DNA from: Deferrisomatales bacterium
Lineage (GTDB): Bacteria > Desulfobacterota > Deferrisomatia > Deferrisomatales > Deferrisomataceae
Direction: 5' to 3'
Assembly (NCBI GenBank): GCA_024277875.1
Contig: JAJRUI010000025.1
Coordinates: 1 to 48,701 of the forward strand
Length of the DNA stretch: 48,701 nucleotides
Shown: positions 12,125 through 36,622 of the stretch, piece after piece
Layout: every line of letters begins with the position of its first letter
Numbering within the stretch: the stretch's first letter is position 1
Program-made: the position numbers and the translations under genes
The notes under the pieces: generated by a model
The model's database searches: none
The model's input: the letters and a program-made list of their open reading frames with translations, nothing else
What the model was told of the DNA's origin: nothing

Positions 12125-12166
12125 GGTGTGGGACTCCTCGCGCTGAAAAGGGGAAAAGGGGAAAAG

Positions 12167-12195
12167 GGGGCGGAGCGCTGCCAGCGCTCCGCCCC
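12167..12195 (-). terminator. strong hairpin between trpB2 and iorA
   Basis: A perfect 13-bp GC stem (12167-12179 with 12183-12195) and 3-nt loop, starting 7 bp after the trpB2 stop. On the minus strand it is followed by repeated CCCCTTTT tracts rather than a pure U-run. It may partly terminate or stabilise the 3' end, reducing iorAB expression relative to trpB2. Confidence 0.55.
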
Positions 12196-12202
12196 GCAAG
12201 GC

Positions 12203-16921: not shown

Positions 16922-17353
16922 TCAGCCTCCCCCGTCGTAGGAGCCGTCGAACTCACCGTCGATGATCTCGGTGAGCACGCCGTGCAGGTCCTTGGGCGGC
17001 TGGATGAACGCGTACCGGTTGCCCATCAGCTCCCGGGGCTTGCGGTCGATGGTGCGGTACCCCTTGCCGGCCAGTTCTTCGAGGCCGGCGGCCACGTCGT
17101 CCACCTTGTACGAGATCAGGAAGAACCCTTCGCCCCGTTTGTCCAGGAACCGGCCCACCTCGCTGTCCGGGGTGGTGGGCTCCATCAGCTCCAGGGCCAC
17201 GTTGTCCAGGTAGTACCGGGCCACCCGGATGCTCTCGGACGGCGCGGTGTAGTACCCGTCGGGCTCCAGCCCCAGGGCGTCCCGGTACCGCTCCACGGCC
17301 GCGTCCAGGTCGCGGACCACGAAACAGATGTGGTCGATCGCCTTTGCCTTCAT
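16922..17353 (-). CDS. VOC-superfamily protein resembling methylmalonyl-CoA epimerase
   Basis: 143 residues from ATG 17353 (ATGA overlap with the hydroxylase large subunit). The fold and motifs follow methylmalonyl-CoA epimerase: DHICFVVRDLDAAVERYRDALG, VALELMEP, RFLDKRGEG and a final GVLTEIID. Of the four metal ligands of epimerases, the His of DH, the middle Glu and the last Glu are present. The GIHHIAF motif reads GFFLISY (residues 76-82), so one ligand His is replaced by Leu 79. It may be a changed or non-metal epimerase. An epimerase for a substituted malonyl- or succinyl-CoA would fit the B12 mutase encoded at 27630-29739, but this is inference. Confidence 0.75.
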   Translation of the reverse strand: MKAKAIDHICFVVRDLDAAVERYRDALGLEPDGYYTAPSESIRVARYYLDNVALELMEPTTPDSEVGRFLDKRGEGFFLISYKVDDVAAGLEELAGKGYRTIDRKPRELMGNRYAFIQPPKDLHGVLTEIIDGEFDGSYDGGG

Positions 17354-20135: not shown

Positions 20136-21133
20136 GACGACGCCTCCCGGGCTCCGACGGCCCGCTGCCACGCCCGGCTGGCCGCGCGCTTTACGGCCAC
20201 GCCCACCACCTTCCGGCGGTACGCAGGGGTGAAGTCCGCGTTCTTCACGGGGCGGGCCGCCCGTCGGGCCGCGTCCGCGGCGGTTTCGAGCGCCTCGGGC
20301 TCCAGGAGCGAGCCCTGGAGCGCTTCTTCTGCCCTGGCCACCCGGACCGGGCCGGAGTCCACCGCGCCCAGCACCACCCGGGCCGAACGACAGGCGCCGT
20401 CGTCCCCGGCCTCCACCCAGACGGCGGCGGACGCCGCGGCAAAGTCCAGACCCCGGCGGGCCCGGATCTTCTCGAACGCGCTGCCCGAACGCCCGGACAG
20501 GGCCGGCACATCGGCCGATAGCACCACCTCGGCGGCTGCCAGGGCCAGCGGCGCCAGCCCCTGGCCGGTGTACAGGTCGGCAACGTCCTTCCGCCGTTCC
20601 CCGTCCGGTCCGGCCACCCGGACCCGTGCGCCCACCGCGGCCAGCGCCGGGGGCAGGTCGGCCGAGAACACGGCGTGGCACCGGTCCCCGCCCGGCACCG
20701 CGTGGCATACCTCGCCCCCGGCCTTGCGGCAGGGCGGGCGGCCGCTTCGCCAGAACGCGGACTGGTTATAGAAGACGCACCGGGTGTCCAGGCACAGGTT
20801 GCCCCCCACCGTGGCCCGGCTCCGGATCGGGGGCGCGGCCACCGAACGGGCCGCCTCGGGGATCGCGGCAACGGACGGGGGCGCGGTCCACCGCTCCAGG
20901 TCCCACAGGGTGGTGGCCGCGCCGATCGCCCACCCGCCGCCCCCGGTGTCGATGCCCGCCGGGCACGCGTCCGCCAGGCTCACCAGGCACTGCGGCCGGC
21001 CGGTGCGGTTCTTCAGGGCGACGACGAGGTCCGTGCCCCCGGCCAGGGCGCGGGCGCCTGGCTCTCCCAGGGCGGCCACAGCGGCGTCCAGGGAGGGAGG
21101 TCGGGTCCATCTTGTGGGCGGCAACCGAAGCAT
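20132..21133 (-). CDS. FAD medium subunit with extra [4Fe-4S] insert, 4-hydroxybenzoyl-CoA reductase beta type (set A)
   Basis: 333 residues from ATG 21133 (CCGGAGG upstream). The FAD motifs are AGGTDLVVALKN and TVGGNLCLDTRC. Between about residues 114 and 155 it carries an insert with Cys 114, 119, 135, 143 and 152, with the pattern CLDTRCVFYNQ...EVCHAVPGGDRCHAVF. This matches the [4Fe-4S]-carrying insert known from HcrB/HbaD. That cluster lets 4-hydroxybenzoyl-CoA reductase receive low-potential electrons from ferredoxin and work reductively. Set A may therefore be a reductase or ferredoxin-coupled enzyme rather than a simple dehydrogenase. It is the first gene of the minus-strand operon. 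Confidence 0.88.
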   Translation of the reverse strand: MLRLPPTRWTRPPSLDAAVAALGEPGARALAGGTDLVVALKNRTGRPQCLVSLADACPAGIDTGGGGWAIGAATTLWDLERWTAPPSVAAIPEAARSVAAPPIRSRATVGGNLCLDTRCVFYNQSAFWRSGRPPCRKAGGEVCHAVPGGDRCHAVFSADLPPALAAVGARVRVAGPDGERRKDVADLYTGQGLAPLALAAAEVVLSADVPALSGRSGSAFEKIRARRGLDFAAASAAVWVEAGDDGACRSARVVLGAVDSGPVRVARAEEALQGSLLEPEALETAADAARRAARPVKNADFTPAYRRKVVGVAVKRAASRAWQRAVGAREASS

Positions 21134-21383: not shown

Positions 21384-22577
21384 ATGGACCTTCCCGAGAA
21401 GCTCACCGTGCTCAGCCTGGAGCAGGCCACCGTGCTCCCGTACCTCACCTACCGCCTGGCCGCGGACGGCGCCCGGGTGGTGCGGGTGGAGCACCCGGTG
21501 TACGGGGATCCCAACCGCAAGGTGGGGCAGCCGTTCCGGCCAGACGAGCCTGACATGTGCAGCTACTTCTTCGCGATCAACGCGGGCAAGGAGGCGGTGA
21601 CCCTCAACCTGAAAGACCCCCGGGGCCGCAAGCTGCTCCACGACCTGATCACCGGGCTCGGGGTGGACGTGTTTGCCACCAACCAGCTGCCCAAGAACTA
21701 CGAACCCCTGGGCATCGCGTACGAACAGCTCCGGGCGGTCAAACCAGACCTGATCTGGGTGGGGCTGACCGGGTTCGGCCCGGACTCCAACGAGGCGGCC
21801 TACGACCCGATCCTCCAGGCCCGGGGCGGGCTGATGGGGCTCACGGGCGAGCCGGACGGGCCGCCCCAGGTGGCCGGGATCCCCCTGCCCGACATGGGCA
21901 CCAGCGAGCACGCGTACGGCCAGGTGATGCGGGCGCTGTACAAGCGGGCGGTCACCGGCGAGGGGAGCCGGATCGACGTGGCCATGATCGACTCCACGGT
22001 GAGCTGGCTCGCCCAGCCGATCACCATGGCCCGCACGTTCGGGGTCGAGATGACCCGCCGGGGCAACACCCACGAGTTCTTCGCGCCGGTGAGCGTGTAC
22101 CCGACCCGGGACGGGTACGTGTACCTGGCCGTGGGCAACGACATCCAGTGGCACCGGCTCCTGGCCGTGCCCGGGTTCGAGGGGCTGGCCGACCCGGCCT
22201 ACGAGACCAACGCGGGCCGGATCGCAGACGTGTCGCGGCTGAACGACCGGCTGGCCGAGGTGACCCGGGGGGTCGGCACGGACCAGCTCCTGGCCGCGCT
22301 GCGGGACGCCCGGATCCCGGTGGCCCGGGTGCAGACCGTGGCCGAGGTGTGCGACGACCCGGCCGTGGCCCCCAAGCTGCTCCGGAGCACCGACCCCCGC
22401 ACCGGGTTCGAGGTGACCCTGGCCCCCCCGCCCGTGATGACCGAGCACCTGGAGGCGTCGGGCCGCACCCTGTCGTTCCCGCCCCGGCTGGGCGAGCACA
22501 ACCGGGCGATCTACGGGGACGAGCTGGGGATCGGCGCGGACGGGCTGGACGAACTGAAAAAAGAAGGCGTGGTCTGA
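21384..22577 (+). CDS. class III (CaiB/BaiF) CoA-transferase
   Basis: 397 residues from ATG 21384 (AGGAGG upstream). Family III CoA-transferase fold: RVEHPVYGD, GKEAVTLNLKDPRGRKLL, NQLPKNYEPLGI, the GFG motif (LTGFGPDS) and the catalytic Asp in PLPDMGTSEHAYG. It is first in the plus-strand operon with acyl-CoA dehydrogenase, ETF and B12 mutase genes. In the indoleacetate pathway of Aromatoleum a class III transferase (IaaL) moves CoA among C4 dicarboxylates such as succinate and phenylsuccinate. The same job is proposed here, with (2-aminophenyl)succinate as CoA acceptor. Family sure; substrate inferred from the operon. Confidence 0.9.
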   Translation: MDLPEKLTVLSLEQATVLPYLTYRLAADGARVVRVEHPVYGDPNRKVGQPFRPDEPDMCSYFFAINAGKEAVTLNLKDPRGRKLLHDLITGLGVDVFATNQLPKNYEPLGIAYEQLRAVKPDLIWVGLTGFGPDSNEAAYDPILQARGGLMGLTGEPDGPPQVAGIPLPDMGTSEHAYGQVMRALYKRAVTGEGSRIDVAMIDSTVSWLAQPITMARTFGVEMTRRGNTHEFFAPVSVYPTRDGYVYLAVGNDIQWHRLLAVPGFEGLADPAYETNAGRIADVSRLNDRLAEVTRGVGTDQLLAALRDARIPVARVQTVAEVCDDPAVAPKLLRSTDPRTGFEVTLAPPPVMTEHLEASGRTLSFPPRLGEHNRAIYGDELGIGADGLDELKKEGVV

Positions 22578-22601: not shown

Positions 22602-23750
22602 ATGGATTTCCGTCTGAGCGAGGAGCAGCAGTTCTTCCGGCAGGCCGTGGCCGACACGGTGGACCGGCTGATCATGCCCCGGGTCGAGCAGATCGACACC
22701 GAGGACGCGATCCCCCAGGACCTGTGGAAGGAGTTCGCAGGGCTGGGCTACCTGGGCCTGCGGTACCCGGAAGACCTGGGCGGCATGGCCGCCGACCCGG
22801 TCACCTGCATGATCTTCTACGAGGAGGTCACGAGGGCGTCGGTGGGGTTTGCCCAGGCCGTGATCATGAACATGTTGATGGGGACCCACTTCCTGTACCG
22901 GTTCGGGAGCCCGGCGATCCGCGAGCGGTGCCTGCTGCCGGCCCTGCGGGGCGAGAAGATCGCCACCATCTGCTTCACCGAGGACCAGTCGGGTTCGGAC
23001 CTTGCGGCCACCCGCACCCTGGCCCGGAAGGTGGACGGCGGCTGGGTGCTCAACGGCACCAAGAACTGGATCACCAACGGGCCCACGGCCGACTTCGCCA
23101 CGGTGCTGGCCACCACGGGCCCTGACAAGGGCATGAAGGGCCTCAATTTCTTCCTGGTGGAGCGGGGCGCCGACGGGTTCCGGTCGGGCCAGGTGCTCCA
23201 CAAGCTGGGGGCCCGGGGCCCGGTGACCGGGGAACTGGTGTTCGAGGACGTGTTCGTACCCGACGAGCACCTGCTCGGCGAGGAGGAGGGCAAGGGGGTC
23301 GTGTACCTGGGCGAGATCCTGGACGAGGTCCGGTGCATGACCGGCGCCATGGCCCTGGGCATTGCGCGCACCGCGTTCGCGGACGGCCTGGAGTACGCGC
23401 GCAAGCGCGAGGCGTTCGGCCGGCCGATCGGAGAGTTCCAGCTGGTCCGGGCCAAGTTCGCCGAGATGGCCACCGACCTCGAGGCCGCCCGGTTGCTCGT
23501 GTATTACGCCGCGTGGATGATCGGGGAGGGGCTCGGACCCCGCAAGGAAGCGGCCATGGCCAAGATGTTCGCCACCGAAGCGTGCCTGAACGTGGTGGAC
23601 GAGGTCACCCGGATCTACGGCGGCAACGGGTTCGCCACCGAGTACGGGCCCCAGCGGTACTTCCGGGACGCCCGGTTCCTGCTGTACGGGGGCGGGACCC
23701 ACGAGGTGCTGAAGAACTTCATCGGCCGGGAGCTGGTGAAGGGACGTTGA
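22602..23750 (+). CDS. acyl-CoA dehydrogenase family protein lacking the usual catalytic Glu
   Basis: 382 residues, normal ACAD length. Motifs: CFTEDQSGSDL (FAD/substrate), NGTKNWITNG, KREAFGRPIGEFQLVRAKFAEM, IYGGNGFATEYGPQRYFRDAR. The C-terminal loop normally reading IYEGT, where Glu is the base that takes the alpha proton, aligns without gaps to YGGGT, so Glu is replaced by Gly 364. A glutaryl-CoA-dehydrogenase-like oxidative decarboxylation, in which loss of CO2 from the alpha carbon replaces proton removal, would not need that base. This fits (2-aminobenzyl)malonyl-CoA oxidation to 2-aminocinnamoyl-CoA. Electrons would go to EtfAB, encoded next. Confidence 0.93.
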   Translation: MDFRLSEEQQFFRQAVADTVDRLIMPRVEQIDTEDAIPQDLWKEFAGLGYLGLRYPEDLGGMAADPVTCMIFYEEVTRASVGFAQAVIMNMLMGTHFLYRFGSPAIRERCLLPALRGEKIATICFTEDQSGSDLAATRTLARKVDGGWVLNGTKNWITNGPTADFATVLATTGPDKGMKGLNFFLVERGADGFRSGQVLHKLGARGPVTGELVFEDVFVPDEHLLGEEEGKGVVYLGEILDEVRCMTGAMALGIARTAFADGLEYARKREAFGRPIGEFQLVRAKFAEMATDLEAARLLVYYAAWMIGEGLGPRKEAAMAKMFATEACLNVVDEVTRIYGGNGFATEYGPQRYFRDARFLLYGGGTHEVLKNFIGRELVKGR

Positions 23751-23786: not shown

Positions 23787-24548
23787 ATGGACATCGCCGT
23801 GTTGGTGAAAGAGGTTCCGGACCTGGAGGCCCGGGTCCAGGTGGTGCAGGACGGCGGGGCCCTGGACGTGGAGAACAAGCGGGTCCTGAACTTTTTCGAC
23901 GAGATCGCGGTGGCGGCGGCGCTCCAGCTCAAGGAGGCCGGCGGGGGGGGGCGGGTGTACGCCGTGGGCGCCGGGTCCGGGTTGGAAGCCGTGCGCCGGG
24001 CGATCGCCATGGGCGCGGACGCCGGGTTCCTGGTGGACGACCCTGCCGTGGACGGCGCGGATCCCCTGACCGTGGCCCGGGCCCTGGCCGCCGTGGTCCG
24101 GGCCGAGGGGTTCGACCTGGTGCTGGCCGGCCGGCAGGCCACCGACGACGAGGCCGGCCTGGTGGGACCGATGGTGGCCGAGTTGCTCGGGGTGCCGTGC
24201 GTGGTGGGGGTGACCGCGGCCGAGCCGGCGGACGGCGGCCTGGTCGTGGGCCGCGAGGTGGACGGTGCGTCCGAGCGGTTGTCCGTGCCTGTGCCCGCCG
24301 TGCTCACCGCGGAGAAGGGGTGGGTCGAGCCCCGGGTGCCCCAGGTGATGGGCCTGATGAAGGCGATGAAGGCCGAGATCGGCCGGCGCACCCTGGCCGA
24401 CCTGGGGGTCGAACCGGTGCCCCCCCTGGCCGCGGCCGGGTACCACGGCCCCCGCAGCCGCCCCGCGGTTCGCATGGTGGAGGGCGAGCCCGCCGAGGCG
24501 GCTGGCGAGCTGGTGCGGATCTTGCGGGACGAGGCCCGGGTGTTGTGA
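23787..24548 (+). CDS. etfB: electron transfer flavoprotein, beta subunit
   Basis: 253 residues from ATG 23787, with GGAGG upstream; an in-frame GTG lies three codons earlier. EtfB motifs: IAVLVKEVPD, NFFDEIAVAAALQLKE, LVLAGRQATDDEAGLVGPMVAELLG, and the recognition-loop region VPQVMGLMKAMKAEI. It binds AMP in ordinary ETFs and, with EtfA, takes electrons from acyl-CoA dehydrogenases. A FixC-type quinone oxidoreductase and FixX follow, so the set resembles FixABCX. In that context an electron-bifurcating ETF is possible but not provable from motifs alone. Confidence 0.93.
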   Translation: MDIAVLVKEVPDLEARVQVVQDGGALDVENKRVLNFFDEIAVAAALQLKEAGGGGRVYAVGAGSGLEAVRRAIAMGADAGFLVDDPAVDGADPLTVARALAAVVRAEGFDLVLAGRQATDDEAGLVGPMVAELLGVPCVVGVTAAEPADGGLVVGREVDGASERLSVPVPAVLTAEKGWVEPRVPQVMGLMKAMKAEIGRRTLADLGVEPVPPLAAAGYHGPRSRPAVRMVEGEPAEAAGELVRILRDEARVL

Positions 24549-24651: not shown

Positions 24652-25611
24652 ATGGCGATCTGGGTGATCTGCGAGGAACACGGGGACGGGCTGCGCCGCA
24701 CCACGCAGGAACTGGCGGCCCAGGCCCGCAGGGTGGCGGAGGACGGCGAGCCGGTGGTGGCCCTGGCCGTGGGCGCGTGCGTGGGCCGGGCCGGCTGGCT
24801 GGACGGCCGCGTGCACAGGGTGGTGAAGGTGGCCGGGGGCGGCCTCGTCCCGTTTTCGGCCGACCCGTGGGTGGCGGCCGTGGCAGCCGTGCTGGCCGAG
24901 GCCGAGCCCCGGCTGGTGCTGTGGGGCGAGGGAACGCGGGCCCGGGAGGTGATGCCCCGGGTCGCGGCCCGGCTCGGGTGGCCCGCCGTGGCCAACGCAC
25001 TGGCACTGGAGGCGGCGGACGGGGGAGCCCGGGTCCTGCGGCCGGTGCTGGGCGGCAAGGCGTACCAGTGGGTTTCCCTGGGCGGGGCGCCGGCCCTGGT
25101 GGCGTTCCGGCCCAACAGTTTCGACCCCGAGGTGGCCGCCGATCTGGACACCCGGGTCGAGGAGCGGTCCGCGGAGCCGTGCGAGGACCGGGTCCGGGTG
25201 CTGGAGCGCACCGCGGGCGACGGCGGCCGGGTTCCCCTGACCGAGGCCCAGGTCGTGGTGGCCGGTGGACGCGGGCTCAAGGACGCGGCCAACCTGGCGC
25301 TCCTGGAGGACCTGGCCGACGCCCTGGGCGGGGCCGTGGGCGTGAGCCGCGCGGTCGTGGACGCCGGGTGGGCGGACCACGCGATCCAGGTGGGCAAGTC
25401 GGGCAAGACCGTGTCCCCGGCCCTGTACGTGGTGGCCGGGGTGTCCGGTGCGGTGCACCACACCATGGGCATGGACACCGCCAAGGTGGTGGTCGCGATC
25501 AACACCGATCCCAACGCCCCGATCTTCAAGTACGCGGACTACGGCGTGGTGGGGGACGCCCTCCAGGTGCTCCCCGCCCTGGCCGCGGCGGTCCGGGCCC
25601 TCGGGACGTGA
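24652..25611 (+). CDS. etfA: electron transfer flavoprotein, alpha subunit
   Basis: 319 residues from ATG 24652 (AAGGGGTG upstream). The N-terminal domain is variable. The C-terminal FAD domain is canonical: VVVAGGRGLKD, GVSRAVVDAGWADHAIQVGKSGKTVSP, LYVVAGVSGAVHHTMGM and VAINTDPNAPIFKYADYGVVGD. It pairs with EtfB and, by gene order, with the FixC-like protein that starts 16 bp later. Confidence 0.94.
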   Translation: MAIWVICEEHGDGLRRTTQELAAQARRVAEDGEPVVALAVGACVGRAGWLDGRVHRVVKVAGGGLVPFSADPWVAAVAAVLAEAEPRLVLWGEGTRAREVMPRVAARLGWPAVANALALEAADGGARVLRPVLGGKAYQWVSLGGAPALVAFRPNSFDPEVAADLDTRVEERSAEPCEDRVRVLERTAGDGGRVPLTEAQVVVAGGRGLKDAANLALLEDLADALGGAVGVSRAVVDAGWADHAIQVGKSGKTVSPALYVVAGVSGAVHHTMGMDTAKVVVAINTDPNAPIFKYADYGVVGDALQVLPALAAAVRALGT

Positions 25612-25627: not shown

Positions 25628-26926
25628 GTGAAGATGGACGCGGTGATCGTGGGGGCCGGCCTGGCCGGCCTGGCCGCGGCCGACCACCTGGCCGGCGCGG
25701 GCCTCCAAGTGGTGGTGCTGGAGCGGGGGGACGGCCCGGGCACCAAGAACGTGACCGGGGGCCGCCTGTACGCGGACAGCGTTCGCGACCTGGTGGCCGA
25801 CTGGGACGGCGCGCCGTGGGAGCGGCCGGTGACCCGGGAGGCGTGGACCCTGGTGGACGGGGACCGGAGCGTGCGGGTCGCGTACGACGACCCCGGCCTC
25901 GGGGGCGGCGCGCCCCACAGCTACACCGTGCTCCGGGGCCGGCTGGATCCGTGGCTCGGGGAGCGGGTGGCGGCCAAGGGCGCGTTCGTGATTCCCCAGA
26001 AGCCCGTGACCGAGCTGCTCCGGGAGGACGGCCGGGTGGCCGGGGTCCGGGTGGACGGGGAGGAGATCCCGGCCGAGGTGGTGATCGTGTGCGACGGGAT
26101 CCTGTCGTTCGTGGGCCAGGCCGCCGGTCTGCGCCGCGTGCCCGGGCCCGGCGCCGTGGCCGTGGGGATCAAGGAGGTGATCGGCCTTCCCTCGGGCACG
26201 ATCGAGGACCGGTTCGGGGTGGGGCCTGACGAGGGCGCGGCTGAGTTGCTCCTGGGCTCCTTCACCGGCGGGTGCATGGGGGGCGGTTTCCTGTACACCA
26301 ACCGGGAGTCGGTGTCGGTGGGGGTGGTGGTGGGGGTCGAGGACCTGATGGCCGGCCCGGCCCTGGGGAACGCGCCGGACCTGCTCGAGGCATTCAAGGC
26401 CCACCCCCGGGTGCGCCGCCTGGTGGAGGGCGGCGAGTTGCTCGAGTACGCCGCGCACCTCATTCCCGAGGCCGGGGCGGCCGGGGTGGGACCGGTGGTG
26501 GCCGACGGCCTGCTGCTGGCCGGCGACGCCGCCGGGCTGGCCCTGAACATGGGGTACACGGTGCGGGGCATGGAGTTCGCCCTGGCCAGCGGCCGGATGG
26601 CCGCACAGGCTGTGGTCGAGGCCCGGGAGCGGGGCGACGCGTCGGCCGCGTCCCTGGCGTCCTACGAGCGCCGCCTAAAGGACAGCTTCGTGTGGCGGTA
26701 CCTGGACGCGTACCGGGACATGCCGGCAATGCTGGAGAATCCGGACCTGTTCGGCCGGTACCCCCGGGAGGTGTGCGACCTGCTGGGGGGGCTGGTGCGG
26801 CTGGGGCGGGACGCCCCTGCCCCGGTGGGGGCCGAGGTGTGGCGGTTCGTGCGCCGGAACCTGCTGAACCCCCGGGACGCCCGTTTCTGGTGGAAGGCCC
26901 GCAAGCTGGGACGCCAGACGTCCTGA
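25628..26926 (+). CDS. fixC: FixC-like ETF:quinone oxidoreductase flavoprotein
   Basis: 432 residues from GTG 25628 (ATG 25634 two codons later is possible). FAD-binding VIVGAGLAGLAAADHLA at the N-terminus, NVTGGRLY, VIVCDGILSFVGQ, and the late motif LLLAGDAAGLALNMGYTVRGMEFALASG are typical of FixC / ETF-QO. The C-terminal [4Fe-4S] domain found in mitochondrial ETF-QO is not in this chain; the separate FixX at 27275 provides it, as in the FixABCX arrangement. It passes electrons from EtfAB into the quinone pool. Confidence 0.92.
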   Translation: MKMDAVIVGAGLAGLAAADHLAGAGLQVVVLERGDGPGTKNVTGGRLYADSVRDLVADWDGAPWERPVTREAWTLVDGDRSVRVAYDDPGLGGGAPHSYTVLRGRLDPWLGERVAAKGAFVIPQKPVTELLREDGRVAGVRVDGEEIPAEVVIVCDGILSFVGQAAGLRRVPGPGAVAVGIKEVIGLPSGTIEDRFGVGPDEGAAELLLGSFTGGCMGGGFLYTNRESVSVGVVVGVEDLMAGPALGNAPDLLEAFKAHPRVRRLVEGGELLEYAAHLIPEAGAAGVGPVVADGLLLAGDAAGLALNMGYTVRGMEFALASGRMAAQAVVEARERGDASAASLASYERRLKDSFVWRYLDAYRDMPAMLENPDLFGRYPREVCDLLGGLVRLGRDAPAPVGAEVWRFVRRNLLNPRDARFWWKARKLGRQTS

Positions 26927-27274: not shown

Positions 27275-27553
27275 ATGACCGTCGACGAAAAGCTGACCCG
27301 CAACGCGTTCAAGCCGGACGAGGAGAGCCACATCTCGCTGGACGAGGCCGTGTGCCGGTCCCGGTGCACCGAGCGCTACTGCGTGCGGGTGTGCCCGGCC
27401 GCCCTGTACGCGTGGAGCGAGGAGGGCGACCGCATGGTGGTGGAGCACGCCGGGTGCCTGGAGTGCGGTACCTGCCTGGTGGCGTGCAGCCACGGCGCCC
27501 TGGCCTGGCGCTATCCCCGGGGCGGCCGGGGCGTGCAGTACCGGTACGGGTGA
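27275..27553 (+). CDS. fixX: FixX-like ferredoxin
   Basis: 92 residues from ATG 27275. It has the FixX pattern: HISLDEAVC, then [15 protein letters not shown] and [18 protein letters not shown], ending in a basic Gly-rich tail. One ferredoxin cluster is clear from [11 protein letters not shown] plus the earlier CP; the first group is partly degenerate, as usual in FixX. It partners the FixC-like flavoprotein as the Fe-S module of an ETF:quinone oxidoreductase. There is no evident ribosome site; the start is set by the conserved N-terminal region. Confidence 0.9.
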
Positions 27554-27629: not shown

Positions 27630-28028
27630 ATGGCGCGGAAGATCAAGGTGCTGGTGGCCAAGCCGGGGCTGGACGGCCACGACCGGGGGGCAAAGGTGGT
27701 GGCCCACGCGATCCGGGACGCGGGCATGGAGGTGGTGTACACCGGCCTGCACCAGAGCGTGGAGGCGATCGTCCAGGCGGCGGTCCAGGAGGACGTGGAC
27801 GTGATCGGCCTGTCGATCATGACCGGCGGCCACCTGCCGATCTGCCGCAAGCTGGTCCGGCTGCTCCGGGAGCAGGGGGCGCAGGACAAGGTGATCCTGG
27901 TGGGGGGGGTGATCCCCCGCAGGGATTTCGAGCCCCTGCGGGAGTTGGGAATCGAGGGAATCTTTCCCGGGGGCACGCCCCTGGAGGAGACCGTAGCATT
28001 CATCCGGGAGAAGTGCGGGGACCGGTGA
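27630..28028 (+). CDS. B12-dependent acyl-CoA mutase, small (cobalamin-binding) subunit
   Basis: 132 residues from ATG 27630 (GGAGGAGG upstream). Stand-alone B12 Rossmann domain with the cobalt-ligand motif DGHDRG (DxHxxG), LSIMTGGH and the GGVIP / [11 protein letters not shown] motifs. It matches small subunits of split methylmalonyl-CoA-type mutases. The paired large subunit follows after 82 bp. The pair corresponds to the mutase proposed for (2-aminophenyl)succinyl-CoA in anaerobic indoleacetate breakdown, although by sequence alone the small subunit is a generic one. Confidence 0.92.
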
Positions 28029-28110: not shown

Positions 28111-29739
28111 ATGGACGTCGCGCGCTACGTCAAAGACGACAAAGACGTGATCCAGGACGTGATCCTGTCGTCCGGCATCCACGTCAAGCCCAGGTACGGC
28201 CCCGAAGACCTGGACGCGGTCGGGTTCGACTACCAGACAGACCTGGGCGAACCCGGGCAGTACCCGTTCACCCGGAACCTGTTTCCCCAGGGGTACCGCA
28301 CCCGGGAGTGGACGACCCGCCAGTACACGGGGTTCGGCACCCCCCGGGAGACCAACGAGCGGTTCAAGCTGATGATCTCCCACGGCCAGACCGGCCTGAA
28401 CGTGGCGTTCGACCTGCCCACCCAGATGGGCCTCGACTCGGACCACCCCATGGCCGAGGGCGAGGTGGGCCGGGTGGGCATGGCCGTGGACAGCCTGCGG
28501 GATTTCGAGGTGGCGTTCGACGGCATCGACCTGCACCGGGTGGGCGCAGGGCTCACGATCAACGCGGTGGCCGCGATCATGCTCGCCATGTACCAGGCCG
28601 TGGGCGAAAAACTCGGGTTCGACCGCACCCGGATCTCGGCCACTCCCCAGAACGACATCCTCAAGGAGGTGGTGGGGCGGGGCGCGTGGATCTTTCCGCT
28701 GGACCCCGCGATCCGGCTGATCGGCGACACCATCGAGTACGCGATCGAGTCCATGCCCCGCACCAACCCGGTGAGCGTGTGCGGGTACCACATCCGGGAG
28801 TCCGGGGCGACCCCGGCCCAGGAGATGGCCTACGCGTTCCTCATTGCCAACGCGTACATCGACGAGGTGGTGCGCCGGGGGTACGAGCCCGACCGGTTCG
28901 TGGGGCGGTTCAGTTTCAACTTCAACATCTTCGGCAACCTGTGGGAGCAGGTGGCCAAGTTCCGGGCCGGCCGCAAGGTGTGGGCGCGCAACCTGCGGGA
29001 GAAGTACGGCGTGGAGAACCCCCGGAATCTGTGGCTGCGGGGGCTGTTCGCCGGCGGCGGATCGGGCCTGACCAAGGCGGAGCCCGAGAACAACATCATC
29101 CGCGGCGCGTACTTCGCCCTGGCCGCGGCCCTGTCCGGGGCCCAGACCACGGCCCTGTGCTCGTTCGACGAGGCGTTCACCATCCCCACCCCCCGGGCGG
29201 CCCTGCTGAGCCTCAGGACCTGCCAGATCCTGATGGAGGAGGTGGGGATGCGGGACACGGTGGACCCCCTGGCCGGGTCCTACTTCGTCGAGACCCTCAC
29301 CAAGCAGATGGAAGACAAGATCTGCGAGGAGATGGCGGCCATCGAGGACCGGGGCGGGATCGTGGAGTGCATCCGGGACGGGACCGTGCAGCAGAAGCTC
29401 GCCCGCCAGGCGTACGAGTTCGAGCGCGAACTCGAGGCCGGCCGCCTCGTCAAGGTGGGGGTCAACAAGTACGCCTCCGAGGAGGAGCAGGAGGTGGAAC
29501 TCCACGAGTACAACGAGGCGTGGGCCGAGGAAAAGGTCCGGGAACTGTCCGACCTGAAGCGGTCCCGGCCGGCACGCCCCGCGGCCGACGCCCTGCGGGC
29601 CCTGGAGGGGGTGGCCCGGCGGGAGGAGAACGTGATGCCCGCCTTGGTGGCGTGCTGCAAGGCGTACTGCACCGTGGGCGAGATGGCCGACGTGTTCCGG
29701 CAGGTGTTCGGCACGTTCCAGGAGCCGAGGATTTTCTAG
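28111..29739 (+). CDS. B12-dependent acyl-CoA mutase, large subunit, with altered active site
   Basis: 542 residues from ATG 28111 (CGGAG upstream). Methylmalonyl-CoA mutase TIM-barrel family: YPFTRNLFPQGYRTREW, TRQYTGFGT, GLNVAFDLPTQMGLDSDHP, QNDILKE, SVCGYHIRESG. Against Propionibacterium MCM, residues for the substrate carboxylate are kept (Tyr 72 = Tyr 89, Arg 190 = Arg 207, His 227 = His 244). The RTHSQTSG and SLHTNSLDE loops read RGLFAGGG (310-317) and ALCSFDE (348-354), losing His/Gln residues near the substrate and adenosyl. This suggests a dicarboxylyl-CoA substrate with a bulky side group. Its stop codon TAG lies in the left end of the repeat element at 29736. Confidence 0.92.
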   Translation: MDVARYVKDDKDVIQDVILSSGIHVKPRYGPEDLDAVGFDYQTDLGEPGQYPFTRNLFPQGYRTREWTTRQYTGFGTPRETNERFKLMISHGQTGLNVAFDLPTQMGLDSDHPMAEGEVGRVGMAVDSLRDFEVAFDGIDLHRVGAGLTINAVAAIMLAMYQAVGEKLGFDRTRISATPQNDILKEVVGRGAWIFPLDPAIRLIGDTIEYAIESMPRTNPVSVCGYHIRESGATPAQEMAYAFLIANAYIDEVVRRGYEPDRFVGRFSFNFNIFGNLWEQVAKFRAGRKVWARNLREKYGVENPRNLWLRGLFAGGGSGLTKAEPENNIIRGAYFALAAALSGAQTTALCSFDEAFTIPTPRAALLSLRTCQILMEEVGMRDTVDPLAGSYFVETLTKQMEDKICEEMAAIEDRGGIVECIRDGTVQQKLARQAYEFERELEAGRLVKVGVNKYASEEEQEVELHEYNEAWAEEKVRELSDLKRSRPARPAADALRALEGVARREENVMPALVACCKAYCTVGEMADVFRQVFGTFQEPRIF

Positions 29740-29952: not shown

Positions 29953-32058
29953 ATGGCGTACAAGATCGGCATCGACGTGGGCGGGACGTTCACCGACTTC
30001 CTGCTGACCCGGGACGACGGCTCCAGTGCGATCTACAAGGTGCTGTCCACCCCCAAGGACCCGTCTATCGCCACGGTCCAGGGGATCGAGGAGATGGCCC
30101 GGGACCGGGGGCTCACCGCCGAGCAGTTCCTGTCCGAGGTGACCACCATCGTCCACGGCACCACGGTCACCACCAACGCAACCCTGACCTACTCCGGGGC
30201 CAGGACCGGGCTGCTCACCACCCGGGGGCTCCGGGACGCCCTGGAGATGCGCCGGGGCATCCGGGAGGAGCAGTACAACAACCGGTACCCCAACGCCCGG
30301 CCGGTGATCGAGCGGCGCCTCCGGCTGCCCGTGGACGAGCGCCTGGGCGCCCAGGGCGAGGTGATCACGCCCCTGGACGAGGGCTCGGTGCGGGCCGCGG
30401 TGGAGGTGCTGCGGGCCGAGGGGGTGGAGGCCGTGGCCGTCTGTTTCATGAACGCGTACGCCAACCCGGCCCACGAGGCCCGGGCGGCCGAGCTGGTGCG
30501 CGAGTTGCTGCCCGGCGCGTTCGTGTCGGTGTCCACCGAGGTGGTGCCCGCGATCCGGCTGTACGACCGGGTGTCCACCACCGCGCTCAACGCGTACGTG
30601 GGGCCGGTGTTGCGGCGGTACCTGGAGAGCCTGACCCGCAAGCTCGCCGACCTCCACTACCGGGGCGTGCTGCTGATCATGGCGTCCAACGGCGGGGTGA
30701 TCGCGCCCGAGGTGGCCATGGACCGGCCGGCCACCACCCTGCTGTCCGGGCCGGCCGGCGGGCCGGTGGCCGGGCTCGCGTTCTCCCGGGGCCAGGGGTA
30801 CGCGGACTGCATCACCTGCGACATGGGCGGCACCAGCTTCGACGTGGCCCTGGTGAAGGACGGCAAACCCCTGACCACCACCGAGGGCGACATCAACCGC
30901 CTGCGGATCAGCCTGCCGATGCTCGACGTGGTCACCATCGGCGCGGGCGGCGGCTCGATCGGGTGGATCGACGAGGGAGGGTTGCTGCGCATGGGGCCCC
31001 AGAGCGCGGGCGCCGACCCGGGGCCTGCGTGCTACGGCCGGGGCGGGACCCGCCCGACCTGCACCGACGCGGACCTGCTGCTCGGGTACCTGGATCCGGC
31101 GTTTTTCGCCGGCGGCCGGATCCCCCTGGACGTGGACGCGGCCCGCCGGGCCGTGGACGAGCACGTGGCCGGTCCCCTGGGCCTGGACGTGGACGCGGCC
31201 GCCGCCGGCATGTACGAGGTGATCAACGTGTCCATGGCGGCCGCGGTGCGGGAGATCGCGGTGAACAACGGGTACGACCCCCGGGACTTCCCCCTGGTCA
31301 CGGCCGGCGGGGCCGGCCCGAACCACGCGTGCCAGATCGCCCTGGAGCTGGGGATCCCGGTGATCCTGGTGCCTCGGGAGTCGTCGATCTTCTGCGCCGC
31401 GGGCATGCTCCGCTCGGACCTCAAGCACGACTTCGTGCGCACCTACCCCACCCGGCTGGACGGGATCGACCCGGACCGGTTCCGGGCCCTGTGCCGGGAG
31501 ATGCGCGACCAGGGCCTGGCCCTGCTGGCCGACGAGGGGATCCCGGCCGACCGGGTCACCGTGGGCCTCACCCTGGACCTGCGGTACCTGCGCCAGTACC
31601 ACGAGGTCGGGATCGAGGTGTCGTGGGACGAGGCCGAGGCGTGCGACCCGGCCGCGATCGCGGCCAAGTTCCACCCCCAGCACGACGCCCTGTACGGGTA
31701 CTCCCTGGAGGACAAGGGCACCCCGGTGGAGCTGATGAACATCCGCCTCACCGCGATCGGCCGCACCGACAAGCCGAGCCTCGTCCCGGAGCCCCGGGCG
31801 GGGGAAGACCCGTCCCCGGCGCGCAAGGGCGTGCGCCGGGCGTACCTGCCCGGCGAGCGCGCGTTCGCGGACGTGGTGGTGTACGACGGCATGGCGCTCC
31901 GCCACGGCAACCGGTTCGACGGGCCGGCCGTGATCGAGCAGGTCAACACAACCACGTTCGTCACACCGGAGTTCTCGGTGGTGGTCGACCCCTACGGAAC
32001 CTACACCCTGTACCGCAAGGAACGGGAAGACGAGATCCTCGGGAGGGTCCTCGGATGA
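29953..32058 (+). CDS. hydantoinase/oxoprolinase-family subunit A (ATP-dependent amidohydrolase)
   Basis: 701 residues. HyuA/AcxA family: N-terminal ASKHA nucleotide-binding motif IGIDVGGTFTDFLL, IVHGTTVTTNA, GLRDALEMRRG, LLSGPAGGPVAG, CDMGGTSFDVALV, GAGGGSIGWID and GADPGPACYGRGG. Members hydrolyse lactams or carboxylate ketones with ATP (5-oxoprolinase, N-methylhydantoinase, acetone or acetophenone carboxylase). It is coupled to hyuB by an ATGA overlap. The indoleacetate pathway uses a two-subunit enzyme of this family (IaaC/IaaE) to open the 2-oxoindole lactam, the proposed role here. Carboxylase function cannot be excluded by sequence alone. Confidence 0.9.
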   Translation: MAYKIGIDVGGTFTDFLLTRDDGSSAIYKVLSTPKDPSIATVQGIEEMARDRGLTAEQFLSEVTTIVHGTTVTTNATLTYSGARTGLLTTRGLRDALEMRRGIREEQYNNRYPNARPVIERRLRLPVDERLGAQGEVITPLDEGSVRAAVEVLRAEGVEAVAVCFMNAYANPAHEARAAELVRELLPGAFVSVSTEVVPAIRLYDRVSTTALNAYVGPVLRRYLESLTRKLADLHYRGVLLIMASNGGVIAPEVAMDRPATTLLSGPAGGPVAGLAFSRGQGYADCITCDMGGTSFDVALVKDGKPLTTTEGDINRLRISLPMLDVVTIGAGGGSIGWIDEGGLLRMGPQSAGADPGPACYGRGGTRPTCTDADLLLGYLDPAFFAGGRIPLDVDAARRAVDEHVAGPLGLDVDAAAAGMYEVINVSMAAAVREIAVNNGYDPRDFPLVTAGGAGPNHACQIALELGIPVILVPRESSIFCAAGMLRSDLKHDFVRTYPTRLDGIDPDRFRALCREMRDQGLALLADEGIPADRVTVGLTLDLRYLRQYHEVGIEVSWDEAEACDPAAIAAKFHPQHDALYGYSLEDKGTPVELMNIRLTAIGRTDKPSLVPEPRAGEDPSPARKGVRRAYLPGERAFADVVVYDGMALRHGNRFDGPAVIEQVNTTTFVTPEFSVVVDPYGTYTLYRKEREDEILGRVLG

Positions 32059-33794
32059 GCGGCAACGTGACCATCGACAAGGTGCTGGTCTCGATCCTCC
32101 AGCGCCGGCTGAAGAGCATCACCGAAGAGATGAGCATCGCCATGACCCGGACCACCCGCAGTCCGATCCTGTGCGAGGCCAAGGACTTCGTCACCGGCCT
32201 GTACGACGCCCGGGGCAACATGCTCGAGCAGACCGAGAACCTGCCGATCCTGGCGTTCAGTCTGGCGCCGGTGTGCAAGTACATCATCGAGTACTACGGC
32301 GACGACATCCACCCGGGTGACGTCATCTTCCACAACGACGTGTTCAGCATGGGCAACCAGAACAACGACGTGGCCGTGTACAAGCCGATCTTCTTCGACG
32401 GCGAGCTGGTGGCATGGGCCGCGTGCAAGGGCCACCAGGCCGACATCGGCGGCGCGGTGCAGGGCGGGTACAACCCCCAGGCCACCGAGGTGTGGCAGGA
32501 GGCCCTGCGGATCCCGCCGATCAAGGTGTACGAGAAGGGGCGCCGCCGCAAGGACGTTTGGGATCTCATCTTCGCCAACATCCGCCTGGACATCGTCGAG
32601 GAGGACATGCGGGCCGAGATCGGGTCGTGCGTGGTGGGCGAGCGCGGGATGCTCAAGATCCTGGAGCGGTACGGCCGGGAGGTGTTCGAGGCCCACAAGG
32701 AGCACCTGTTCGACGCCACCGAGAGCATGATGCGCCAGGAGATCCGCACGATCCCGGACGGGGTGTACCGGGGCGAGTCCAAGGCGTACTACGACGGCCA
32801 GAACCCGGGGTCCGAGTACACGATCCGGGTGGCGATCACCGTGGAGGACGGCCGGATCCGGTTCGACTACACCGGCACCGACCCCCAGACCCCGGGGTTC
32901 GTCAACGGCACGTTCACCTCGAGCGCGTCGGCCACGATCCTGACGTTCCTGCAGATGGTCAACCCGGACATGCCCCACAACCAGGGCATGATCCGGCCGA
33001 TCGAGATCACGATCCCCGAGGGCACGATTCTGAACGCGGCGTACCCGGCGGCCACCACCTACGGCAACCACCTGTGCCCCAACAACGCCGACGCGATCAT
33101 GCGGGCCCTGGGCCCGGTGATCCCCGACCGGGTCACGGCCGAGTGGAACGAGCTGCTGTGCAGCCTGACCACGGGCAAGGACCCCCGCAAGGAAGGCGCG
33201 CCGTTCGTGGACATCGGGTTCATGGGCATGAAGGGCGGCTCGGGCGGTATCTACGGGTGCGACGGGTACGATCACATCGGCATGATCGACGCGTCCGGCG
33301 GCGTGCTCGACCAGGACTACGAGATGTTCGAGCAGCAGACGCCCCACCGCCTGATCCGCCACGAGTACTGGTGCGACTCGGCCGGCGCGGGCCGGTGGCG
33401 GGGCGGCCTGGGGGTGGTCACCGAATTCGAGATCGGTGGCGAGGCGGTCAAGCTGGTCACCTTCGGGGACGGCGACGTGGAGCCGGCCCGGGGCGCCCAG
33501 GGCGGCAAGGAGGGCACCCTGAACGTGATCCGGCTGCGCTACCCGGACGGCCGGTGGTACACCTGCACCACCAAGGACATGGTGGCGGACGTGCCCGCCG
33601 GTACCCTGTACTACCAGGAGGCCGGCGGCGGCGGTGGCTGGGGCGACCCGCGCGAGCGGCCCGCCGAAAAGGTGCTGGCCGACGTGCGCAACGGCGTGGT
33701 CTCGCTCGAGCGGGCCCGGGGCGACTACGGGGTTGTGATCGACCCCGAGACCTGGACCGTGGACGAGGCCGCCACCGCCGAACTCCGGAGCTGA
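32055..33794 (+). CDS. hydantoinase/oxoprolinase-family subunit B
   Basis: 579 residues from ATG 32055. HyuB/AcxB family: ILQRRLKSITEEMSIAMTRTTRSPIL, SEAKDF-like CEAKDFVTGLYD, HPGDVIFHNDVFSMG, HQADIGGAVQGG, GMLKILERYG, TGTDPQTPGFVN, GGSGGIYG and the C-terminal GDGDVEPARGAQGG, YYQEAGGGGGWGDP. It is the second half of the ATP-dependent enzyme with HyuA, probably cytosolic. A third subunit, as in acetone carboxylase (AcxC), is absent, which favours hydrolase over carboxylase. Confidence 0.9.
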   Translation: MSGNVTIDKVLVSILQRRLKSITEEMSIAMTRTTRSPILCEAKDFVTGLYDARGNMLEQTENLPILAFSLAPVCKYIIEYYGDDIHPGDVIFHNDVFSMGNQNNDVAVYKPIFFDGELVAWAACKGHQADIGGAVQGGYNPQATEVWQEALRIPPIKVYEKGRRRKDVWDLIFANIRLDIVEEDMRAEIGSCVVGERGMLKILERYGREVFEAHKEHLFDATESMMRQEIRTIPDGVYRGESKAYYDGQNPGSEYTIRVAITVEDGRIRFDYTGTDPQTPGFVNGTFTSSASATILTFLQMVNPDMPHNQGMIRPIEITIPEGTILNAAYPAATTYGNHLCPNNADAIMRALGPVIPDRVTAEWNELLCSLTTGKDPRKEGAPFVDIGFMGMKGGSGGIYGCDGYDHIGMIDASGGVLDQDYEMFEQQTPHRLIRHEYWCDSAGAGRWRGGLGVVTEFEIGGEAVKLVTFGDGDVEPARGAQGGKEGTLNVIRLRYPDGRWYTCTTKDMVADVPAGTLYYQEAGGGGGWGDPRERPAEKVLADVRNGVVSLERARGDYGVVIDPETWTVDEAATAELRS

Positions 33795-33825: not shown

Positions 33826-35109
33826 ATGACCCAGACGTTCATGCCCACCGTCCGCACCCCCGAGGAACTGCGCCGGCTCCAACTGGACGGCCTGCGCTGG
33901 ACCGTGCGCCACGCGTACGAGGGGTCCGGGTTCTACCGCCACCGGATGGACGAGGCCGGGGTGGGGCCGGACGACATCCGCACCCTGGACGACATCCGCC
34001 GGCTCCCCCTCACCACGGCCGCCGACCTCCGGGACGGGTACCCGTTCCCCCTGCTCAGCGTGCCTCTGGAACGGGTCGTGCGGATCCACTCGTCGTCCGG
34101 CACCACGGGCAAGCGCAAGATCCTCGCCTACACCCGCAAGGACATCGAAGACTGGACCCACTTCTTCGCCCGGTGTTACGAGATGGCCGGGGTCGGCCCC
34201 GGCGACCGGGTCCAGATCGCGGTGGGCTACGGGCTGTGGACGGCCGGGGTGAGTTTCCAGGCCGCGTGCGAGGCCGTGGGCGCCATGGCGATCCCGGTGG
34301 GCCCGGGCAACCTGGACATGCAGTGCCAGTTCCTGGTGGACCTGGAGCCCAACGTGTTTTGCTGTACCGCGAGCATGGCCCTGCTGCTGGCCGAGGAGGT
34401 GGAGCGCCGGAACCTGCGCGACCGGGTGAAGCTGCGCACCGTGATCCAGGGCTCGGAGCGGTGCAGCGAGGCCATGCGAAACCGGATCCAGGAACTCCTG
34501 GGGGTGGAGCACGTATTCGACATCACGGGCATGACCGAACTGTACGGCCCGGGGGCCGGCCTGGACTGCCACCAGCACCAGGGCATCCACTACTGGGCCG
34601 ACTACTACCTCCTGGAGCTGCTCGACCCCCGGACCCTCAAGCCGGTTGCCGACGGCGAGATCGGCGAGATGGTGGTGACCACCCTGCGCAAGGAGGGCGC
34701 GCCCCTGATCCGGTACCGCACCCGGGACCTGACCCGCGCCCTGCCCGACCCGTGCCCGTGCGGCTCGGTCCTGCCCCGCCACGACCGGATCCTGGGCCGG
34801 GACGACGACATGTTCGTGTACCGGGCCGTCAACGTGTACCCGGGACAGATCGACGAGATCCTGTCCGAGGTGCCCGGGGTGTCCAGCGAGTACAACATCG
34901 TGCTGGAGCGCCGGTTCGGCCGGGACTTCATGACGATCTACGTGGAGCGGGACCCGGCCGGCGATCCCCTGAAGGACGAGGCCGTGGAGGCGGCGGTGGC
35001 CCACCGCATCAAGAGCCACATCCTGGTGTCCGCCGAGGTCAAGGTGGTGGACTACGCGTCCCTGCCCCGGAGCGAGAAGAAGTCCAAACGCGTGTTCGAC
35101 AAGCGGTAG
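33826..35109 (+). CDS. PaaK-like aryl-acetate CoA ligase
   Basis: 427 residues from ATG 33826 (GAGGACC upstream). Phenylacetate-CoA ligase family of adenylate-forming enzymes: IHSSSGTTGKRK (P-loop), GYGLWTAGVSF, GSERCSEAMRNRI, DITGMTELYGPG, YRTRDLTR, RHDRILGRDDDMFVYRAVNVYPGQI, and the C-terminal PaaK domain ending LPRSEKKSKRVFDKR with the catalytic Lys. An indoleacetate-CoA ligase of this family (IaaB) starts the Aromatoleum route. Position between the ring-opening enzyme and a Mo hydroxylase supports indoleacetate as substrate here. Confidence 0.9.
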   Translation: MTQTFMPTVRTPEELRRLQLDGLRWTVRHAYEGSGFYRHRMDEAGVGPDDIRTLDDIRRLPLTTAADLRDGYPFPLLSVPLERVVRIHSSSGTTGKRKILAYTRKDIEDWTHFFARCYEMAGVGPGDRVQIAVGYGLWTAGVSFQAACEAVGAMAIPVGPGNLDMQCQFLVDLEPNVFCCTASMALLLAEEVERRNLRDRVKLRTVIQGSERCSEAMRNRIQELLGVEHVFDITGMTELYGPGAGLDCHQHQGIHYWADYYLLELLDPRTLKPVADGEIGEMVVTTLRKEGAPLIRYRTRDLTRALPDPCPCGSVLPRHDRILGRDDDMFVYRAVNVYPGQIDEILSEVPGVSSEYNIVLERRFGRDFMTIYVERDPAGDPLKDEAVEAAVAHRIKSHILVSAEVKVVDYASLPRSEKKSKRVFDKR

Positions 35110-35142: not shown

Positions 35143-35991
35143 ATGGCCCGATTCGCGTACCACCGACCCGCAACCGTGGACGAGGCCCTCGGCCTGCTGG
35201 CCGATCTGGGGCCCGATGCAGTGCCCGTGGCCGGCGCCACGGACGTGTGGGTGAACCTGCGGTCCGGCAAGCTCGCGCCCCGGGCACTGGTTTCCCTGCG
35301 GGCCGTTCCCGGCCTGGCCGGCCTGGACCGGTCGGACGACGGTTTGACCCTGGGCGCGTGCGCGACCCACGCGGCCGTGGAGGACGATTCGTGGATCGCC
35401 GGCCGGCTGCCCGCCCTGCACATGGCGTGCTCCCAGGTGGGATCGCGCCAGGTGCGCAACGTGGGCACCGTGGGCGGCAACCTGTGCAACGCGGCGCCGT
35501 CGGCCGACGCGGCCGTGGCCCTGCTGCTGTACGACGCGGTGTGCCGGGTCGAGGGGCCGGGCGGCGGGCGGGACGTGCCCCTGGACGGGTTCTTCCTGGG
35601 GCCGGGCCGGACCGCGCTCGCCCCGGGCGAGATCCTCACCGGGATCCGGGTGCCCGTTCCCCGGGGCCGGACCGTGGCCGGGTACCACAAGCTCACCCGG
35701 CGCAAGGCGATGGAGCTGCCGATCCTGGGGGTGGGGGTTCGGGTCACCCTGGACGACGGCGGCGCGGTGTCCGAGGCCCGGGTGGCCCTGGGGGTGGCCG
35801 GCCCCACGCCGGTCCGGTGCCCCGGCGCCGAGGCGGCCCTCGCGGGCGGACCCCTCACCGCGGAGCGGGTCGAGGCCGCGGCCGAGACCGCTGCGCGGGA
35901 AGCCCGCGTCCGGGACTCCTGGCGGGGCCAGGCGTGGTACCGGCGGCACATGATCCGGGTGCTGATCCCGCGGATCCTGCTTGGGTGCTGA
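35143..35991 (+). CDS. Mo hydroxylase FAD medium subunit (set B)
   Basis: 282 residues from ATG 35143 (GAGGAAAG upstream). CoxM/XdhB type: PVAGATDVWVNLRSGK, NVGTVGGNLCNAAPSADAAVAL, GPGRTALAPGEILTGI, YHKLTRRKAMELPILGVGV. It has no [4Fe-4S] insert, unlike the set A medium subunit, so it probably passes electrons at higher potential as a dehydrogenase. The stop TGA (35989-35991) lies in the left end of a repeat-element fragment; the last residues (LLGC) may be repeat-derived. Confidence 0.92.
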   Translation: MARFAYHRPATVDEALGLLADLGPDAVPVAGATDVWVNLRSGKLAPRALVSLRAVPGLAGLDRSDDGLTLGACATHAAVEDDSWIAGRLPALHMACSQVGSRQVRNVGTVGGNLCNAAPSADAAVALLLYDAVCRVEGPGGGRDVPLDGFFLGPGRTALAPGEILTGIRVPVPRGRTVAGYHKLTRRKAMELPILGVGVRVTLDDGGAVSEARVALGVAGPTPVRCPGAEAALAGGPLTAERVEAAAETAAREARVRDSWRGQAWYRRHMIRVLIPRILLGC

Positions 35992-36043
35992 AAAACCCCC
36001 ATCCGTGGGTTTTTCAGCGACGGCCTCTCGGGGACGGCCCCGG
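35977..36043. repeat. left-half copy of the multi-hairpin element after the medium subunit gene
   Basis: It holds TGCTGAAAAACCCCCATCCG, then GGGTTTTTCAGC, GACGGC and TCGGGGACGGCCCC in the order seen at 29741-29800. No right end is visible. It contributes the stop codon of the preceding gene and separates the M and S subunit genes by 154 bp. Confidence 0.6.
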
Positions 36044-36145
36044 ACGCGCTCCATCCGTGTGGGGCACACCGCTCGGGCCGCCGTTGCAGCGGATTGCCAA
36101 GAGACCAGAAGCGAGGAACTGGAGAAACCCTTTCGGAGGTGTCCG

Positions 36146-36622
36146 ATGGACGGGGTGGTGGTACGGTTCACGGTGAATGGCGAGGCGGCAGCGGTCCGGG
36201 TGGAGCCCGACTGGACGCTCCTGCGGGCCCTGCGGGAAGGGCTGGAACTGACCGGCGCCAAGGAGGGGTGCGGCGCGGGCGAGTGCGGCGCGTGCACCGT
36301 GATCGTAGACGGCCGGGCCGTGAACGCGTGCCTGTTCCCGGCTGTGGAGGCCGAGGGGGCCGCGATCACCACCATCGAGGGGGTGGCGGCGGCGGACGGT
36401 TCCCTGCACCCGCTCCAGCGCGCGTTCCTGGACAGCGGAGCGGTGCAGTGCGGGTTCTGCACGCCGGGCATGGTGCTGTCGGCCAAGGCCCTGCTCGACC
36501 GCACCCCCCGGCCAACCGAGGACGAGATCCGTACCGCCCTGGCCGGCAACCTGTGCCGGTGCACGGGCTACGTGCAGATCATCGAGGCCGTCCAAGCCGC
36601 GGCCGAGGAGATGAGCGGATGA
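36146..36622 (+). CDS. Mo hydroxylase [2Fe-2S] small subunit (set B)
   Basis: 158 residues from ATG 36146 (GGAGGTGT upstream). The two [2Fe-2S] domains are CGAGECGACTV with NACLFP, and CGFCTPGM with CRCTGY. All cluster cysteines are present. It overlaps the large subunit start by 4 bp (ATGA). It relays electrons from the Mo centre to the FAD subunit. Confidence 0.95.
   Translation: MDGVVVRFTVNGEAAAVRVEPDWTLLRALREGLELTGAKEGCGAGECGACTVIVDGRAVNACLFPAVEAEGAAITTIEGVAAADGSLHPLQRAFLDSGAVQCGFCTPGMVLSAKALLDRTPRPTEDEIRTALAGNLCRCTGYVQIIEAVQAAAEEMSG

Follow-up and report, generated by a model that had tools for sequence, protein, structure and literature searches.

How does an acyl-CoA dehydrogenase oxidize its substrate when the glutamate expected to act as catalytic base is a glycine, and where do the electrons then go? 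Both questions are raised by an iaaF-type gene in the window, by which we mean the whole stretch of DNA analyzed here, 48,701 nucleotides from a Deferrisomatales bacterium (contig JAJRUI010000025.1 of assembly GCA_024277875.1). The motif, the chemistry and the mechanism have already been published for the IaaF family: GGG replaces YEG in all orthologues of IaaF, the benzylmalonyl-CoA dehydrogenase (Schühle et al., 2021; PMC8360864), and the absence of the Glu from this enzyme has been restated in a later paper (PMC11659651). What is new here is the consistent travel of the GGG dehydrogenase with its own electron-transfer genes, which gives a modest angle on the electron acceptor.

A glycine at the position of the base

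The open reading frame runs from an ATG start to a single, terminal stop codon. Codons 362-366 read TAC GGG GGC GGG ACC (Y-G-G-G-T), Gly364 being encoded by GGC, and in alignments with solved acyl-CoA dehydrogenases that are gapless from the RDAR segment to the C-terminus, the Glu of IYEGT is aligned with Gly364. This glycine also lies opposite the Glu (YEG or GEG) of paralogues encoded in the same genome. The AlphaFold model of the 382-residue protein has the acyl-CoA dehydrogenase fold (pLDDT 93.4, pTM 0.92) and is nearest to solved butyryl-, glutaryl-, isovaleryl- and short-chain dehydrogenases (TM 0.91-0.95); we recognized no solved GGG enzyme among the best structure matches listed.

Relatives were gathered by a whole-genome search and by a scan with peptide patterns from the N-terminal half of the protein and, because the scan peptides are N-terminal, the resulting set is unbiased towards the GGG motif. 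With copies removed, GGG is present in 104 of 104 distinct relatives, which extend down to ~43% identity and come from several phyla, and every match of at least 43% identity that covers the loop has it. No other GGG dehydrogenase is encoded in the genome of the window enzyme, where identity to the remaining acyl-CoA dehydrogenases does not exceed 37-38% and the seven motifs read all carry Glu; in-genome paralogues 27-37% identical to the window enzyme read YEG, VEG, GEG or FEG. Since all 104 relatives share GGG while paralogues from the same genome carry Glu, the motif is neither a sequencing error nor a product of chance. In a tree from which published IaaF references are absent, a single branch (SH-aLRT 99) separates 101 GGG rows from 25 other rows. 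The best match to the window enzyme in a plasmid search is 41.5% identical. The original prediction had placed Gly364 at the position of the base Glu, and the codons, the gapless alignments and the relatives confirm that placement.

The indoleacetate-type cluster and the predicted reaction

Downstream and immediately upstream of the gene lie the genes expected to accompany an IaaF, namely those for a CoA-transferase, B12-dependent mutase subunits, a hydantoinase-type hydrolase and a CoA ligase (Table 1). The CoA-transferase gene ends 24 bases upstream of iaaF and is linked to it in relatives as well, and the gene order of the cluster is kept in seven other loci. To judge by its sequence, the iaa-type cluster of the window is complete; the hydantoinase-like pair and the Mo enzyme we take to play the parts assigned to them in the anaerobic indoleacetate pathway. 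Three of the encoded enzymes, the CoA-transferase, the mutase and the CoA ligase, are the counterparts of IaaL, IaaGH and IaaB, respectively, in anaerobic indoleacetate degradation (named as in PMC8360864). The window enzyme resembles IaaF of Aromatoleum aromaticum both in having GGG for YEG and in having the CoA-transferase, the mutase and further iaa genes nearby.

Table 1. Features of the window around the iaaF-type gene, with the basis of each assignment
Feature	Coordinates	Strand	Basis
VOC-fold methylmalonyl-CoA-epimerase-like protein	16922..17353	-	TIGR03081, 85 bits; divergent block, linked to iaaF
Family III CoA-transferase, IaaL-like (phenylsuccinyl-CoA transferase)	21384..22577	+	NCBIfam CaiB/succinyl-CoA:mesaconate transferase models, below equivalog cut-offs
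iaaF-type acyl-CoA dehydrogenase	22602..23750	+	382 aa; Y-GGG-T motif, alignments, AlphaFold fold
ETF beta subunit	23787..24548	+	Family models; linkage to iaaF (see text)
ETF alpha subunit	24652..25611	+	Family models; linkage to iaaF (see text)
FixC/YdiS-like flavoprotein, putative ETF:quinone oxidoreductase	25628..26926	+	PRK10015 390 bits, FixC 345 bits, below cut-offs
FixX-like ferredoxin	27275..27553	+	PRK15449, below cut-off
B12-binding small subunit of acyl-CoA mutase, IaaH-like	27630..28028	+	TIGR00640, over cut-off
Acyl-CoA mutase large subunit, IaaG-like	28111..29739	+	TIGR00641, over cut-off; co-occurs with GGG dehydrogenases
Hydantoinase/caprolactamase alpha-like, ring-opening hydrolase subunit	29953..32058	+	Family models
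Hydantoinase/caprolactamase beta-like subunit	32055..33794	+	Family models
Phenylacetate-CoA-ligase-like, IaaB-like indoleacetate-CoA ligase	33826..35109	+	TIGR02155, 400 bits (equivalog cut-off not reached)
Mo hydroxylase of the xanthine dehydrogenase family (FAD and Mo/Fe-S subunits), candidate for hydroxylation of the indole ring	35143..38940	+	Family models

Our main reading, to which we give a probability of about 0.88, is that the protein is an IaaF-type benzylmalonyl-CoA dehydrogenase that would carry out a decarboxylating oxidation without a base and hand its electrons to an ETF. The substrate would be (2-aminobenzyl)malonyl-CoA, delivered by the neighboring B12 mutase; its alpha-carboxylate would leave as CO2 and the electron pair would drive transfer of a hydride from C-beta to FAD, giving 2-aminocinnamoyl-CoA, after which the reduced FAD would pass its electrons to the downstream ETF and on to a FixC/FixX-type quinone reductase. 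Because decarboxylation would replace deprotonation, the base Glu would be unnecessary and Gly364 could stand in its place; the Gly-Gly-Gly loop may make space for the alpha-carboxylate and block unwanted deprotonation at C2. Our analysis establishes the sequence and motif of the window protein, its clade, its gene context and the co-occurrence of GGG enzyme and mutase; we infer that the protein performs the reaction, in what order the chemical steps occur and that the electrons leave through the ETF. For A. aromaticum IaaF (WP_011236983), decarboxylation and FAD reduction have been measured, and elimination of the alpha-carboxylate in place of proton abstraction has been proposed (PMC8360864).

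The original prediction had likewise held that decarboxylation makes a base superfluous, an interpretation that agrees with the literature because it is the mechanism proposed by Schühle et al. (2021; PMC8360864), and had suggested a (2-aminobenzyl)malonyl-CoA dehydrogenase, an identity that the GGG clade, the iaa-type cluster and the published enzyme make probable. It had asked whether the A. aromaticum homologue shares the change, and both that homologue and the one from Ferroglobus have GGG (PMC8360864). It had also looked to CO2 release and ETF reduction as assays; for A. aromaticum IaaF the former is on record and the general ETF was not reduced (PMC8360864).

The link to the mutase extends beyond the locus. 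Among 297 genomes sampled evenly from the phylum, with a GGG enzyme counted at E 1e-100 or better, 44 genomes have a GGG enzyme and 57 have a mutase 60-100% identical to that of the window, with a clear gap to the next matches (at most 47%). Both are present in 40 genomes, the GGG enzyme only in 4, the mutase only in 17 and neither in 236; the IaaG-like mutase is thus found in 40 of 44 GGG genomes versus 17 of 253 others (naive Fisher p ~2e-31, a value inflated by relatedness). The four GGG genomes with no detectable close mutase are all drafts. Of the seven mutase-only genomes that we looked at again, five have next to the mutase a GGG copy that is more distant; in another, the contig with the mutase starts within etfB, just upstream of which iaaF would lie. 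The base-free acyl-CoA dehydrogenase mechanism would accordingly be a trait fixed across a multi-phylum clade, one that tracks the mutase making the alpha-carboxylated substrate.

IaaF takes one enantiomer of its substrate, and methylmalonyl-CoA epimerase rescues the other (PMC8360864). Because a second epimerase in the genome, 44% identical to the VOC-fold protein of the window, adjoins an ordinary mutase elsewhere, the window copy is a candidate (2-aminobenzyl)malonyl-CoA epimerase. VOC genes also occur in six other iaaF loci and in one iaa cluster. The divergent block further includes a Mo-enzyme operon (17350-21133, - strand) and an accessory ATPase (16005-16913). The best models for this Mo enzyme include the three 4-hydroxybenzoyl-CoA reductase subunits (TIGR03193/4/5, below cut-offs), its beta subunit contains a cysteine-rich segment (Cys114, 119, 135, 143 and 152), and parts of the operon recur near iaaF or iaa genes in seven loci. 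Since the pathway should yield 2-aminobenzoyl-CoA, our guess is that the enzyme acts reductively on this compound, for example in removal of the amino group. A long open reading frame (8639-12199, - strand) matches the alpha subunit of indolepyruvate:ferredoxin oxidoreductase (TIGR03336, 620 bits vs a cut-off of 651) and, in its second part, NAD(P)-binding, glutamate-synthase-like proteins; its product might feed tryptophan-derived indoleacetyl-CoA to the neighboring pathway. IorA-like matches are found in seven other loci. The reading frame at 43304-44308 has a reductive dehalogenase/QueG-like match (TIGR02486, 124 bits, below cut-off).

Linked electron-transfer genes as candidate acceptor

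With A. aromaticum IaaF, O2 worked as electron acceptor, and the general ETF and dyes did not; A. aromaticum encodes a single ETF, and in some anaerobes the iaa operon includes an ETF paralogue (PMC8360864). The window differs from A. aromaticum in that dedicated etfBA and FixC/FixX-like genes directly follow the dehydrogenase gene, and these provide a concrete candidate for the acceptor that is missing from the 2021 paper. The EtfB of the window is closest to Paracoccus ETF (1efp) and its EtfA to the bifurcating ETF of C. difficile (5ol2). We measured linkage in 77 GGG loci of at least 57% identity, counting EtfB where it lies downstream within 5 kb and treating loci with room for the gene as testable. 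EtfB is downstream of the GGG gene in 67 of 69 testable loci, EtfA in 63 of 65, FixC in 48 of 61 and FixX in 40 of 54. Taken with the co-occurrence counts, this linkage connects the GGG enzyme with an alpha-carboxylated CoA ester and makes the adjacent ETF its likely acceptor. Because A. aromaticum IaaF used O2 and not the ETF of its own organism, the argument for the ETF step is one from linkage, and by that argument the reduced FAD is most likely re-oxidized by the ETF encoded directly downstream.

The same genes also keep together at a second kind of site. We picked 19 loci for the absence of neighboring iaa genes and read the names of the genes there from their protein sequences; in 15 of them, mostly from Syntrophorhabdales, a yqeY-mutS2-dnaG-rpoD block precedes the GGG gene, which is accompanied by etfBA and usually also by FixC/FixX. 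All members of the branch have been described as lying within iaa operons (PMC8360864), a statement from which these rpoD-linked copies depart. Seven genomes have the GGG gene beside rpoD and a dehydrogenase-free iaa cluster on another contig; all of these clusters have genes for the CoA-transferase and the mutase, and the six with sufficient sequence also have those for the hydantoinase and the ligase. We lean, by a small measure, to the view that what is inherited as a unit is a redox module (GGG dehydrogenase, EtfB, EtfA, FixC and FixX) and not the iaa operon. The dehydrogenase of this module would not be an oxidase; its electrons would pass via the ETF of the module to a quinone reductase of the FixCX type. 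In Syntrophorhabdales the module would have moved to the yqeY-mutS2-dnaG-rpoD site while the other pathway genes stayed elsewhere in the genome. If this is true, it answers the published question of the electron acceptor.

Alternative explanations for the missing glutamate

Other members of the fold have lost the loop Glu, or lose CO2 from their substrates, by other means, and each offers a comparison. Isovaleryl-CoA dehydrogenase (1ivh; 4o5m, 4kto) has the same fold and has also lost the loop Glu (GAG in 4o5m), but it has a replacement base Glu on a core helix. The window protein lacks this substitute base of isovaleryl- and long-chain acyl-CoA dehydrogenases: the isovaleryl-type Glu, for which the original prediction had recommended a search, aligns with Val243 (LDYER over LDEVR), and all 104 distinct relatives have Val or Ile there. 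Judged by sequence, the sole obvious rival base is the adjacent Glu242, a near-invariant marker of the GGG clade (Glu in 102 of 104 relatives, Gln in two) at a position that varies among enzymes keeping the loop Glu. Three arginines, Arg54, Arg244 and Arg337, are the same in every member of the clade. Were Glu242 a second carboxylate that abstracts the C2 proton, like Glu254 of isovaleryl-CoA dehydrogenase, the protein would be an ordinary dehydrogenase of branched or aryl acyl-CoAs; the conservation and clade-specificity of the residue speak for this, as does the Burkholderia isovaleryl-type enzyme 4o5m, which likewise manages without the loop Glu (IGAGT). The aligned base is nevertheless Val243 and not Glu242, residue 242 varies in loop-Glu enzymes, the substrate that the pathway provides has an alpha-carboxylate, and decarboxylation by IaaF has been measured (PMC8360864). 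Because residues that follow each other on a helix (here residues 232-268 of the model) point in directions ~100 degrees apart and two members have Gln, we regard Glu242 as a very improbable base.

Base-free decarboxylating oxidation also has to be set against CO2 loss of another kind and against loss of redox activity. Glutaryl-CoA dehydrogenase combines oxidation with CO2 loss in one acyl-CoA dehydrogenase fold (3mpi/3mpj, TM 0.94-0.95 to the model) but, unlike the window enzyme, keeps YEG and removes a gamma-carboxylate after oxidation (PMC8360864); the window protein has Gly364 in place of the YEG Glu and scores 237 bits with NF045552 against a cut-off of 470. In 3-sulfinopropionyl-CoA desulfinase (5af7/5ahs; AGG), loss of the Glu accompanies loss of redox chemistry (PMC8360864), which sets it apart from IaaF. 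That the window protein is a lyase of this kind, or an inactive paralogue, is hardly credible: the NCBIfam desulfinase model does match, but at 220 bits against the equivalog cut-off of 600 (NF042439), and the adjacent ETF genes, the strong conservation across phyla and the published redox activity of the family all oppose it. Improbable, too, is a GGG decarboxylating dehydrogenase for some other malonyl-type CoA ester, such as benzylmalonyl-CoA from phenylsuccinate or alkylmalonyl-CoA from fumarate-added alkanes. IaaF does accept some alkylmalonyl-CoAs at a low rate (PMC8360864) and in some clade members the gene is next to dnaG-rpoD and not in an iaa operon, but the enzymes expected for indoleacetate (Mo hydroxylase, ligase, hydantoinase pair, CoA-transferase and mutase) are all encoded in the window cluster, and the idea that the rpoD-linked genes serve another pathway is weakened because the same genomes keep an iaa cluster elsewhere.

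Two sets of copies were considered as possible ordinary dehydrogenases, the rpoD-linked genes and the 52%-identical members of tandem pairs, and both were rejected as such since they carry GGG. The tandem pairs consist of GGG dehydrogenases ~52% and ~69% identical to that of the window, both without the Glu (for example, at 8829-11137 of locus L049), and are found in ten further loci. They lie mostly inside one iaa-type operon, where a division of labor or a heteromeric enzyme is possible.
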